From Nannobrachium achirus (taxonomy: Eukaryota > Chordata > Actinopteri > Myctophiformes > Myctophidae): a stretch of DNA of 64,000 nt. The notes under the pieces are model-generated. The model searched no databases. It was not told where the DNA came from and saw nothing but the letters and a program-made list of their open reading frames with translations. Each line of letters starts with the position of its first letter. Within the stretch, counting starts at the first letter, position 1. Shown piece after piece: positions 860-53,100 of this stretch. The stretch lies in NCBI GenBank assembly GCA_963921795.1, contig OY997641.1:51916216-51980215 (forward strand), written 5' to 3'. The position numbers were made by a program, and so were the translations under genes.

Positions 860-3800
860 GTACTGTATGTCTGGACAGTACCATGTTCACCCTCTGTTAT
901 TTATTTAAAACCCACTTCAACCGTAGCATCCCTATTCTGGGATTAACATTCAGCAAAACAATTGCCGAGCTACAAGCTCACAGCGTGTCACAATGTGTTT
1001 TGAGCTTGTAGAGTGGCTATTTATGGCAAACAGATTGTGTTGTGGAAAAAGGAGCGCACCTAGAACAAAGCCTTGGGGGACCCCGGTCAACTAAATAGAC
1101 AGTGTTTATAGTTTTCTAGGAGTGAGCCTGACCTACTGGTGTACATACTAAGGTGGTATATGTATGAAATACTTGGGTTTTACCTGCTGGTGTCAATGTG
1201 AGATGCTGTAATCAATATTGTAATTAATGGTTTCTAGGAGAGCGTGTTTTAAAAATGAAAGTAAACTGTCGCGTACCAGCGTTGTGCACCGAAAATAGAC
1301 AATCCACAAGATCACAACACATCGCAGCACACACGCCCCGTTGTGACCTTGTAGATCTACTATTTTTGGTGTGCGACACCAGCACGCAACTAAGCATAAG
1401 TCAAGCCTCATGGTGTGTGATTATAATTGTCTTTTTTTCGTTTTTTCAGGCCTGTATTGGAGGATACTGGGCTTCCAGTACGGTGTGCACCTGCCCGCTC
1501 TGCAAGAGACAGTTTGAAGAGCGACCGCTCCTCAGCATCAACCGCGTCTTCGCCCTCATCGCCGACAAATACAAGCTGTCCCGCTACGGGACGGCCTCTA
1601 ACGGAGAACTGCCCATAGAGGCCGGGATGGGTTTACCCACGACGCCGGACTCTAAGGCCATGCACGCGGCCGGAGGGAACACAAACCCCTTCCGAACGTC
1701 CGAGTCGCACGAGGACTGCGTGTGGTGCGACGTGTGCACGGGGATCAAACAGCGCGCCGTCAGCTCCTGTCTGACGTGCACGGCCTCGTACTGCGACACG
1801 CACGTCCAGCCTCACCGCAACACAGCCTTCTATGCCAGCCACCAGCTGCTGGACCCCCAGGAGGCCCTGAGGGGCCGCACCTGTAGTGCACATCGCCGCC
1901 TGTTGGAGGTGAGGAGAACTTTCAATGGCTGAGTGATTACTTACACTTGGTTGCGTGTAGGAAAATAGCTGATCTACAAGCTTGCAATGTGTTGTGTGAC
2001 GTGACACGCTGTGAGCTTGTAGATCGGCTATTTCCGGTGCGTGACATGGCTCGCAACGAAGTATAAATTAAAGGAGTACTTAACCCATTTTCAAGAAGTA
2101 TTCCCTCAGTGTAGATGCGCAGTAAAACTGTAATCAATCTGTAAAAGCCTGGAAGCTTTTCTTTTTCCAGTATCATTTCAATCCATTAGGGAGCTAGCTA
2201 AAGTTGGATAATTCTTTTATGTAGTCCTGAGGATACTATTTGTATTGGCAGAACTAGCCAGATAAATGACAAAATTATCTACAAAATGATAAAAACTGTC
2301 TCAGAGTAACGCAAACATTTATTATAACTGTTGTATGAAAGCAATATTACATGAGAGGACTGTGTATTTAAACTGAATCAGTGCTATGCTACAGTATAAC
2401 ATGACGTTGCTTTAATATAGTGTTTGATTGCAACCGTTTGACTGTTGCTGCATTCTTGGCCATGCCTCGAGTTAAGAATGCATATATTTTAATTTCACTA
2501 GATGGCTCAATAATGGTTAAATGGCTAAATCATTGTTTTATAACCTGATGATGTTGTACTCATTGACCAGGTGTACTGTAAGACATGCCAGCGCTGTATC
2601 TGTGCCATCTGTGTCCTGGACGAACACCGTACTCACAAAACTGTCTCCGTCCAGACCGAGAGACTCAGCAAACAGGTGAGAAGAAGAGACACACAGAAAT
2701 GGAATGATGAATGGAGATGGTAGAGGCCACTGCCGGCCAGCTAGTGTGGTTCTCAAACAAACCTTTTCTTGTCAAGGTTGTTTAATTCATGCATTTGGCC
2801 ACGGACCCCTCATCTGAAAACATTGATGAGCGGTGAATTATAAATGAGCCATTCGAAATCTATGTATTTGTATAACTAGACCTTACCCGTTTGAAGATAT
2901 GTGCTCCAATATATGTGGCTTGGTATTTTTTCAGTGGTTGTTAATTTGATCCCATGGCCTGGAGGAACGGACCGTAGCCCTGACAACAGGCTGAAGTTGA
3001 GTTGAACAGAAGTGGTATAAAAACGCGAATAAATAGCTTGAATTTGGGAAAAATGGAAATCGGGCTCCGTCATCGTCTGTATAATGATAATGGCCAATGC
3101 CATGTGAAAATGTGTGAAATTGGGATCAGTTGCTGAAGAGAGAAAGGTGGAAATGCATATTCTGACTGACTGACCTACTGACTGACCTACTGACTGACCT
3201 CCCTAATTATAGAATGGATGTCTTTCTGTCTGTCTGTCTGTCTGTCCCTCCATCCTTTTCTCCTTCCAGAAACTGGTAGCAAAGACAGAGATGGAGATGA
3301 TGAATCGAATTGAGGGGAAGAACCTCCGTCTCATGGAGCTGAAGGAGAGGCTAAACCGTATCAGAGTAAGAATAACTTTCATTCATAGAATTAGCCTCAT
3401 ACAACAAGCTGCAATTAACCTACTGTAGGCACTGCAGTAAGATCTAGTATAACTGCTCCACCTCTCAGAGCTTGTTCCATCAAGTGACCTTTTGGAGTAA
3501 CTTTAGGGCAGGTGTTCCCAAACATTTTAGCTTGAGACCCAAAAAATACATTTGGTGTTTCCCTGGGAGTCAAAACTTATTTACATAATTTTTGATAGCC
3601 CTATTCAATACTGAAATAGCCCAAATAATTGTAGATCTGCTATTTTCCTTTTATGAATGGAAATAAGAAAGCAAGTGTAGTTAAGTAAAAACAAAACCTG
3701 CAACCCATTATTCTTTTTGGGGAAACGCCGCTTTAGGATAAGATCACACCTGCGGGCGACTGAAGCAGTCGCATTGCATTCTACGAGGAGCAGCATAGCT

Positions 3801-50100: not shown

Positions 50101-53100
50101 ACCTGTCTTCATATAATAGGTCCTCACTAATGTTCATGATAAAATATCAAAAAAAAAATCTACTCCGTCCAAGTCTCCTCGGAGAGCTGTGGGAAGTTCA
50201 GAATCCATCGTCTTGTGACATCAACATTTTCACAAAAAAAAAAGAAAAAGCTATTTTTGAGTGAGGACCAATTATATGAACATAGGTTGAAAAGTGGTGG
50301 AGTGCCCCTTTAAAAATGTCGTCAAAATCCTTATGGTTTTCTAAAAGTTTCTATATCAGTAGTGCTCAAAGTTTTTTTCTTTTTATGTCAAGGATCCGTA
50401 GAATGTACCGTTCTATGTATTTGACAGCAGACCCCATCTCAAAATATTTTTATAAGATTTGAACACATTTTCACATTTTTCAAAATAGCAGATCTACAAG
50501 CGCATAGCGTGGCACTCGGTGCCGCGCCATGAGCTTGTAGATCTGCTATTTTTTGAATAGCCAAAGTATAAGAAATAATGGTTAAAGTGGTTACATCGCG
50601 TGATACAGATGCATTCCCAGTCTTAATAGGTTATTATGGGATCAACTGCGAAATGAGCTGTCAATGATAAGGACTGTTATCGTACTCGCGTGGTTAACCA
50701 CATTCTGGGGCATACATTCAGACAAAATAGCAAATATACAAGCTCATAAAACGTAACAACGAGATGTGTTGTGTGCTTGTAGATCAGCTATTTTCTGCAA
50801 AGATATTTAATGTAGAGGGCAAAGAAAGGACATGGGACCTAGGGCCCTATTTTCCTCCATGCTAAACCCTAAACCCATTCAATGCCTTTTTTTTTTTACA
50901 AAATAAAAAGTTTTTCAAATAGCTGATCTACAAGCTCACAACCTGTCGATGTAGATCGGCTATTTGAAGTATTTAAAAATGTTTTTCAAAATAGTAAAAA
51001 AAAAAAGGCAAAGAAGTTCAGGGGTATAAGGGTTTAGCATGGACGAAAATAGGCCCTTAGTGTGAATGATTTGGGGTTAAGTGGGGAAGAAAGACATTTC
51101 ATATTATAATCTATTTATTGTACTATATATACTGCACTGCACTAGTATTATGTAATAGTGCATGTAACAATGCACTCGTAGCAAGTCAATTATGAGAAAG
51201 TAATCGCATGAGAGAGGGCTGCTATTCCATTAAGTGCCATTATATTTTCAAAACGGACTTGCGCTCAGTACATTATCATGCGTATACCACGGCTAAATTG
51301 CAATTAGCATACATCTTCATAATTGGCATAAACATTAAATGTTACATTTGAAAAGTCTTCCGTTAATTCAATGTAGTTACAGTAATATGTTTTTGTCACC
51401 AGGTGTCAGTAATTATGATCTGGTCTACCTCCTGCAATTAAATAAATCCTGCCAGACCACATCTCTTGTTCTCGATTGTGACCCTGATCTTTGCCTTTTT
51501 TTCTTACACAAAATTCCACCATGTTTCATGAAAATCTGCCCATTCGTTCTCAAATCTTAATCATGACCTTGACTGCGACTTTGGCCTTTGGCCTTTCTAT
51601 GAAAGGCAAGTTTATTTGTAGAGCACATTTCAATAAGGCAAATCAATGGGCTTTACATAAAACATTAAGCAGAACAATCATGTTTATAACAGGACACTTG
51701 AAACCAAAAGGGACTTGTGGGCAGCCTGCTGACTATTCCCTCGAAGTTTCCAGATAATCTGGCTGTCTGTGCTCAGGTTATCTTCCCAACTACTGTTATA
51801 ATACATTAACCCTTTTTGTGCCTATCCCGAACAAGTTCGGCTTTATTTCAATCCAATACAATGTTTTTTTTTTGCTATTTTACTTACCCTGAGCTGCTTG
51901 TAGAGATGTGGGTGGTCTTGGCTTGTCCTACGCTTTCCAACGAGTGATCCTAGATGGTCCGACGATTTATTCCATTGAAAATGGTTTAAAATAAAGTTTA
52001 GAGCCCCCCCAAAAAAACTCAATCTATACTGTCGGCGGCGCGACGTATTCCGGGGTGCCTAATGCCTATCCGGGATATTTAATAAAATTAATTAATTAAT
52101 CAGAGGCTTATATCGGAGGGTCTAATTTTCCTTTCATGGCCGGGGCCGAGACTCTGTTTACATCGGCCCGTAATCGGGCAACGCTGCCGCACCGCGCCGC
52201 CCACTTCAATACAAACTCACATCTTTAGAGACTTTTTTCTCTGAACTGTGTTCCCAGTGCAGCGACATAGTTTGCGACAAAAATAGCATCAGATCGGGCT
52301 TCTAAAAAATAAAGAAGCTAATAGCTAACTGTTAGCTAACTTCCTCCTCTCGTCATCCATTACAGTGGGTGCAGTGAAAACACAAGGCACTTCTGCCTCT
52401 GTAGACGGATGTTAGAGCGAAGGCCTATACAGAAATGTCTGGCACTCTAGCGGAACTTGTGGCCCGGGCACAGTATGAGTTAATAATAATTTACAATACA
52501 CTGCCATGTAATACTGCAAGCAGGTGTAATTATATGTACATTGACAGTATAGTGCAAATGTGTAATTTCTACAGTTCTACATTTCTGTTCCATTGTTGTT
52601 ATAGTGAATCTATGTACCCACACGTCTCTGCTAATCAGAATGACGTAGTATTTTCAAGTATTGTATGTATTTGTTAAGGTACCATGAATTTACAATATCA
52701 TTGCACTTTAAGTACAGTTATGTGCTACGTACTAGCATTATTTTTACGTAATGAGTACTTTAATAATGCCATTTCTCAAGCTGTGAGTTCAGACTAAATA
52801 AATATTCAGTGGAATGGAAAATGGACTGCATTCCTCCAAAAAGCACTTTGCACAGTGTATTTCACATTCACTCATTCGCACACACATATTCACTGATTGG
52901 TAGCAGTTGCTTGCTCGAGGACAAGCAGCCAAAAGAAGCCAGTGATTGAACCGCAAACCTTCGATTCCAAGACAGCCGCACTGAGTCACTGCCATTGCTT
53001 CATTTGCTTGTAACCTACTTGGTCAACATTCAAATGTAGAACCGTGTCTAGGCTGAACCAGGCAATCCCTGAGCCCATGTCAATTAGCTCTGTCAATCAC

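Follow-up and report, generated by a model that had tools for sequence, protein, structure and literature searches.

Why should one short palindrome recur at some nineteen places within 64 kb of fish DNA? The stretch in question, called here the window, covers positions 51,916,216 to 51,980,215 of contig OY997641.1 of Nannobrachium achirus, and a first-pass annotation had drawn attention to the palindrome and listed 19 places for it. All 19 carry a full, partial or single-arm copy of a near-perfect hairpin, typically of 73 bp. With a probability of roughly 0.6, we think that this hairpin is an inner module of many families of non-autonomous DNA transposons (miniature inverted-repeat transposable elements, MITEs), which carry it as a passenger.

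Abundance and anatomy of the hairpin

The arms are conserved, as the annotation had said, and read AAAATAGCNGATCTACAAGCTCACAACGCGTCGC inwards. With at most one mismatch, GATCTACAAGC occurs 24 times in the window against 0.88 expected, a number reached in none of 100 shuffles. Searched with a profile of the arm, the window gave 33 matches at E<=10, of which 30 remain at E<=1; in the control, made from the reversed window and 28 other loci, there were no matches at E<1 and two at E<10. The profile scores the site at 15627 weakly (E=0.8), but the site contains the 11-mer with one mismatch. Loose matches near 6972 and 10824 (7 and 6 errors) escape the profile and were left out of the count.

The density of one copy per about 3 kb is indeed very high, but it is the norm for this genome. 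In twenty 10-kb stretches taken at round coordinates from contigs C1 to C10 (200 kb), the profile found 143 arms at E<=1 (per 10 kb mean 7.15, standard deviation 5.9, range 0-19). The window, with 30 arms in 64 kb, is thus average. A copy number that does not exceed the level elsewhere in the genome, which the annotation had named as a refuting result, is what its density shows. About eight of the 143 matches come from a tandem half-arm array in one of the twenty stretches, L029. There, at 1074-1340, a half-arm of the hairpin has become a small satellite array, in which a 17-bp unit, TTGTGAGCTTGTAGATT, is repeated 15.8 times in tandem.

In the assembly as counted (1,658,514,493 bases in 564 contigs), the 19-mer arm piece GATCTACAAGCTCACAACG is found exactly 69,781 times (34,951 + 34,830), and the reversed pattern not at all. 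Both 11-base arms, intact and 25-45 bp apart, occur at 59,567 places, again with none for the reversed control; this two-arm pattern is self-complementary, so that its count is equal on both strands. A rough extrapolation from the 200 kb puts the arm total in the genome at the order of a million. Viral contigs contain no match to the 19-mer, and 257 Gb of prokaryote genomes contain 14 matches to 17 fixed bases, not above chance (about 30 estimated).

Sixty-six paired copies, a few of them duplicates, were obtained from the window, the 200-kb sample and eight other loci. The commonest length is 73 bp (24/66), and the hairpin is nearly perfect. In one of the best preserved copies (L031:2227-2299), pairing extends over the full length, save for one mismatch and a 3-base loop. 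Across 167 arms, the likeness between contexts outside the core ends at about YRAAAATAGC. Two arm positions are mismatched in many copies, pair 10/64 in 17/32 and pair 14/60 in 14/32, which shows that perfect symmetry is unnecessary.

Host transposons

The flanks of the hairpin were compared within 343 kb of sequence from this genome; loci other than the window are labelled L0nn. Of the paired hairpins, 47/56 have a repeated flank on at least one side and 30/56 on both, compared with 90/300 for random 150-bp stretches; among single arms, 33/61 have one. The annotation had considered a very small mobile hairpin. The hairpin has been copied on a huge scale, but by its look it is not mainly a stand-alone element, given the frequent repeated flanks and their family-specific character. 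One clustering of the flanks gave 24 clusters of at least two members and another gave 22. Some of these clusters come from the tandem array or from duplicated segments, and each family has two sides, so that we count by eye about nine host families. The immediate flanks of the hairpin differ from host family to host family, no target duplication is common to all contexts, and the inner region is more conserved between families than the ends are.

The clearest hosts have hAT-type ends and an 8-bp target duplication. A strict frame, defined by an 8-bp duplication with at most one mismatch and at least 12/16 matching inverted-end bases, encloses 13/87 paired hairpins, in some cases with one mismatch in the duplication. 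In the window the duplication is ACCTCTGT at 12089-12467 and CGTTAGGG at 18850-19388; it is exact in L026, L031, L033, L042, L046, L048 and L056. The named hosts have short inverted ends of the CAGNGGTTC/TAGGG type, which we take to be typical of hAT. The ends differ between hosts (CAGGGGTCTTCAAC, CAGGGTTCCCCAAT, CAGGGGTTTTCAAA, CAGGGGCGTCACA, TAGGGATGGGAC, TAGGGCTGTCAC, and also CAGTGGTTCCCAAAC). The hAT transposase domain PF05699 has 150 scored matches among 1652 candidates in the assembly. At L031:3164-3671, a single hAT-type frame with the duplication gagacatg holds two hairpins, one in each half.

Frames of the TTAA type were found around 8/87 hairpins and at 6/261 positions chosen at random. 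Of the eight, three look spurious, and the remaining five start with CCAC, CCCA or CCAC/CCTC. Some hosts are nested: in L026 and L042, the hairpin lies within a TTAA/CCACTTGAACC frame, which in turn lies within a hAT frame. Similarly, the core element of the family here termed alpha, which has its own inverted ends, is present in two kinds of hAT host, one represented by L046 and L048, the other by window positions 18850-19388 and L056.

On the model suggested by these sequences, a transposase would act on the host's outer ends, and the hairpin would move and multiply along with the host. The hairpin, or a small element bearing it, may have entered several MITEs, which then spread. Recombination between hairpins, started by a break in the palindrome or by a fork that switches there, could have aided the sharing.

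Within the window, the alpha core element at 9302-9549 encloses an 80-bp hairpin of the alpha version (AAAACAGC..AAGCACACAACGCC, 9386-9465, with TA on either side), and is related to 19082-19283. The latter region belongs to the hAT-type host at 18850-19388 (ends CAGGGGTTTTCAAA/CAGGGGTTCCCAAA, duplication on both sides), in which the profile finds an alpha-version arm (19166-19195, plus strand) that has lost its partner. The gamma host, also hAT-type (379 bp, 12089-12467, ends TAGGGCTGTCAC), contains a 66-bp hairpin flanked by TA (12187-12252). A relative of it on the minus strand (14436-14811) has a damaged hairpin, of which the profile detects an arm at 14663-14693 (minus strand). The hAT-type beta host at 15556-15923 has inverted ends CTGTGGTTACCAAAC/CACTGGTTCCCAAAC, a duplication CTCTAAAG/CTCTAGAG and a damaged hairpin (15616-15666); the hAT-like beta host at 41442-41825, homologous to 15555-15877, harbours a 73-bp hairpin with TA on either side (41513-41585). 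A further host, at 50839-51061, has ends of another kind, namely inverted ends of about 67 bp that are 81% alike (CTAGGGCCCTATTTTC..), with a 53-bp hairpin near its middle (50915-50967).

Other paired hairpins of the window are 68 bp (957-1024, with a left flank that clusters with a TTAACCACTT(G/A)AACC-type family), 77 bp (1291-1367, of a type B in which the outer flanks are inverted too), 75 bp (1961-2035, with type B flanks), 61 bp (22790-22850), 63 bp (43472-43534) and twice 73 bp long (50481-50553, close to the CAGCGCGGCAC-type version, and 50723-50795, with GGTTAACCACATTCTGGGG as left neighbour). Profile matches also include single arms on the minus strand at 3629-3647 (inner end lost) and 4013-4036, and on the plus strand at 30748-30770 (with remnants of the second arm) and 41187-41217 (inner end lost). 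A short hairpin remnant lies at 48804-48833 (arms at E=5.4 and 0.0077). Separate from all these is a 249-bp inverted repeat (19447-19695 and 19857-20105, 98% complementary, spacing 161 bp). Repeated units with TTTATGCCCATATATGGAGAT occupy 29013-33072, with a 300-bp direct duplication at 32162/32773. Open frames of the window presumably resemble a TRIM protein and a KDM2-type protein of the F-box/leucine-rich kind, as would suit a vertebrate.

Symmetry, shortening and rearrangement

Host families have their own versions of the hairpin, often altered on both arms together. In 31 aligned 73-bp copies (30 of them distinct), a change on both sides is seen in 16/35 pairs, compared with 10.1 in shuffles (reached by 2/500); counted as cells of the alignment, both-side changes number 68 against 26.4 (reached by 0/500), figures that are not probabilities, since the rows are related. 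A second set consists of 55 distinct further hairpins of 53 bp, which were selected only by their intact outer arms. Over 14 inner positions, the arms of one copy are alike at 12.29, and arms of different copies at 10.41, with 11.05 as the top of 2,000 shuffles. Both-arm changes outnumber one-arm changes at six inner positions (for example T to A 18 vs 4, A to G 10 vs 1, and 10 vs 9 in the weakest case). At six other positions the changes are all or mostly on one arm, and the last two positions are invariant.

Within the alpha family, the picture is the reverse. In 76 copies, there are 68 one-arm changes and no both-arm change (0.91 expected, the loop and one unlike position excluded), and hence no sign in these copies of ongoing conversion from arm to arm. 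We read the data to mean that symmetry is set when a family is founded and decays later. A new family would be founded by a hairpin whose arms have been made alike again, whether through template switches that cross the hairpin or because pairing is selected for.

Shortened hairpins also occur, though in alpha they are few. Patterns of joined flanks for the alpha, beta and eta families were used to search for shortened copies. For alpha, 5,599 full copies (75-105 bp between the flanks) compare with 192 short ones (0-30 bp); beta has 27 short copies and eta 140. By eye, the short copies of alpha (100 listed of the 192), of beta (all 27) and of eta (among the matches listed of the 140) are mostly graded deletions centred on the palindrome. 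Recurrent exact short forms fit the short direct repeats TA, ACT and TTTG. Such patterns do not tell a genuine empty site from a deletion. A beta-like copy at 3504 in the window was considered as an empty site and rejected, as the alignment and the arm at 3629-3647 reveal a damaged hairpin.

Rearrangements are seen as well. The alpha loop occurs in both orientations within one orientation of the host (GCGGTGC in 14/76 copies, GCACCGC being common), which may reflect inversion between the arms, perhaps in one old event that was later copied. The locus L016 is a recombinant: over 704 columns it is 89% alike with L018, up to the hairpin end, and over 748 columns, starting within the hairpin, it is 97% alike with L015. 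L015, L016 and L018 are neighbouring duplicated segments of contig C1 (at about 73-94 kb), with the hairpin as the rearrangement junction.

Competing origins and known systems

Several observations weigh against a passenger module with many hosts. No repeated flank was found for 9/56 paired hairpins and 28/61 single arms in the 343 kb, so some copies may be solitary. Strict hAT frames account for only 13/87 hairpins; a few of these are doubtful, and at least one (L030) is a simple repeat. Such frames also occur at 22/261 random positions; 6/10 of those listed are hairpin hosts, and the host at 18850-19388 of the window turned up among these controls. Among the 73-bp copies, further pair types are not unusual (34 vs 32.2, reached by 123/500 shuffles). 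An earlier test of arm likeness gave no excess (identity 0.543 within a copy, 0.568 to other copies); several copies were out of register in it, and it is superseded by the 73-bp and 53-bp tests. Flank clustering did not indicate mass swapping of halves at the hairpin: L016 is the only clear recombinant with its junction there, and other sharing of one flank appears by eye to begin some bases outside the hairpin. Finally, in the alpha, beta and gamma families a TA adjoins either end of the hairpin, and 8 of the first 100 listed of the 192 short alpha copies are reduced to exactly TA, which together is what a small TA-inserting element would leave.

The likeliest alternative is one that we consider rather unlikely. 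The hairpin could be a stand-alone palindromic MITE of about 77 bp, similar to human MADE1, with the structure TA|GTGAAAATAGC...GCTATTTTCAC|TA and mobilized by a Tc1/mariner-like transposase; many copies would then have fallen into other MITEs and multiplied there. Two arms of about 35 bp with a tiny loop fit this description, as does a common length close to 80 bp. The junctions of the three families combine TA with GTG...CAC ends, TAGTGA is the most frequent sequence in the six bases before the core (25/167 arms), and the exact-TA forms of alpha resemble empty sites. Because of the TA on both sides in these three families, an origin of this kind keeps some plausibility. However, a constant TA duplication at the hairpin ends was not observed: TA stands on both sides in the alpha, beta and gamma hosts, and the junctions of further large families are different (TTTGCC/GGCTAAA, TATTG/GAAAA, CTCT/AGC). 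Exact-TA forms are absent from the 27 short beta copies, the listed eta forms are by eye mostly graded deletions, and in alpha ACT serves as well as TA (5 of the first 100 listed). Moreover, the 9/56 paired copies that lack a repeated flank are few for an element that inserts on its own.

A bolder version of the passenger reading, which we hold to be unlikely, makes the hairpin a selfish module. It would itself be the place where recombination or fork switching carries it over from one MITE family to another, and it would swap host halves, be re-made near-perfect at each founding, and outlive the families that carry it.

It is quite improbable that the structure itself is what selection maintains, be it as an RNA hairpin (a small-RNA precursor) or as a DNA hairpin that aids the multiplication of its host, so that the paired changes would be compensatory. 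The both-arm changes seen when copies from different families are compared would fit this, and the fold is very stable: for L031:2227-2299, the predicted DNA folding energy is -41.7 kcal/mol, compared with -9.2 kcal/mol for shuffles, and five folded window copies are weaker (-20.4 to -34.5 kcal/mol). The two frequently mismatched positions speak against such selection, as does the absence of both-arm changes among the 76 alpha copies. In addition, Rfam 15 has no family at gathering score for the whole window, and for one perfect copy it returned only sub-threshold matches, mostly to microRNA models (best MIR2600, 50.7 bits of 98 needed). Descent alone, from one old MITE with a hairpin whose outer parts have diverged past recognition in all hosts, is very improbable: TTAACC[AC][AC]TT motifs do recur in several families (in 24/243 arm flanks of 250 bp against 3.3 expected, where two flanks may share one of the 39 occurrences in all the sequence analysed), but host ends are of clearly different hAT kinds, frames are nested, and 73-bp hairpins from different hosts align without gaps.

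If the hairpin is a passenger module, it would be a rare case of an inner part, rather than the ends, as the lasting unit, shared by transposons with different ends. It would offer many natural replicates for measuring breakage, shrinkage, inversion and return of symmetry of a palindrome. Repeat libraries based on ends would scatter one such module under many family names.

In the open-access literature searched, we found no description of a hairpin core shared by many hAT-type MITEs, and six arm strings were absent from it. MITEs with hairpin potential are known from fish: the Angel elements of zebrafish, for which hairpin-based amplification has been proposed. Small hairpins or palindromes that multiply are also described as organellar repetitive hairpin elements and as GC clusters of yeast mitochondria (PMC2800124, PMC4478555). 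Unlike the module considered here, they are mitochondrial and, as far as these descriptions go, apparently not inner parts of MITEs. The V domain of short interspersed elements (SINEs) is, according to the available part of its description, a short conserved domain that occurs in different kinds of transposon and was spread by a MER6 burst; in contrast to the hairpin, it is SINE-derived, and that part mentions no hairpin core (PMC6887750). Human MADE1 is described as a near-perfect palindrome of 80 bp, with two 37-bp arms and a 6-bp centre, present in thousands of copies as a stand-alone MITE of Hsmar1 (PMC1784062). The similarity lies in a near-perfect palindrome of similar size in great number; the difference from the stand-alone element, as far as that account extends, is that most paired copies here are found inside other repeats. 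The closest parallel in organization may be CMITE of Acropora corals, in which, by the portion of the report consulted, a conserved inner region is common to families with different ends, and the origin of the inner region is unexplained (PMC2872659). CMITE elements measure about 100 bp, use TTAA sites, have piggyBac-like ends and are estimated at 1,600 copies; the portion consulted does not describe them as hairpins. Compared by description only, the two systems thus have in common an inner region that is kept across families with different ends, and the hairpin of N. achirus differs from CMITE in that its core is a near-perfect hairpin and far more abundant, that its clearest hosts are hAT-type, and that its hosts are nested in one another.

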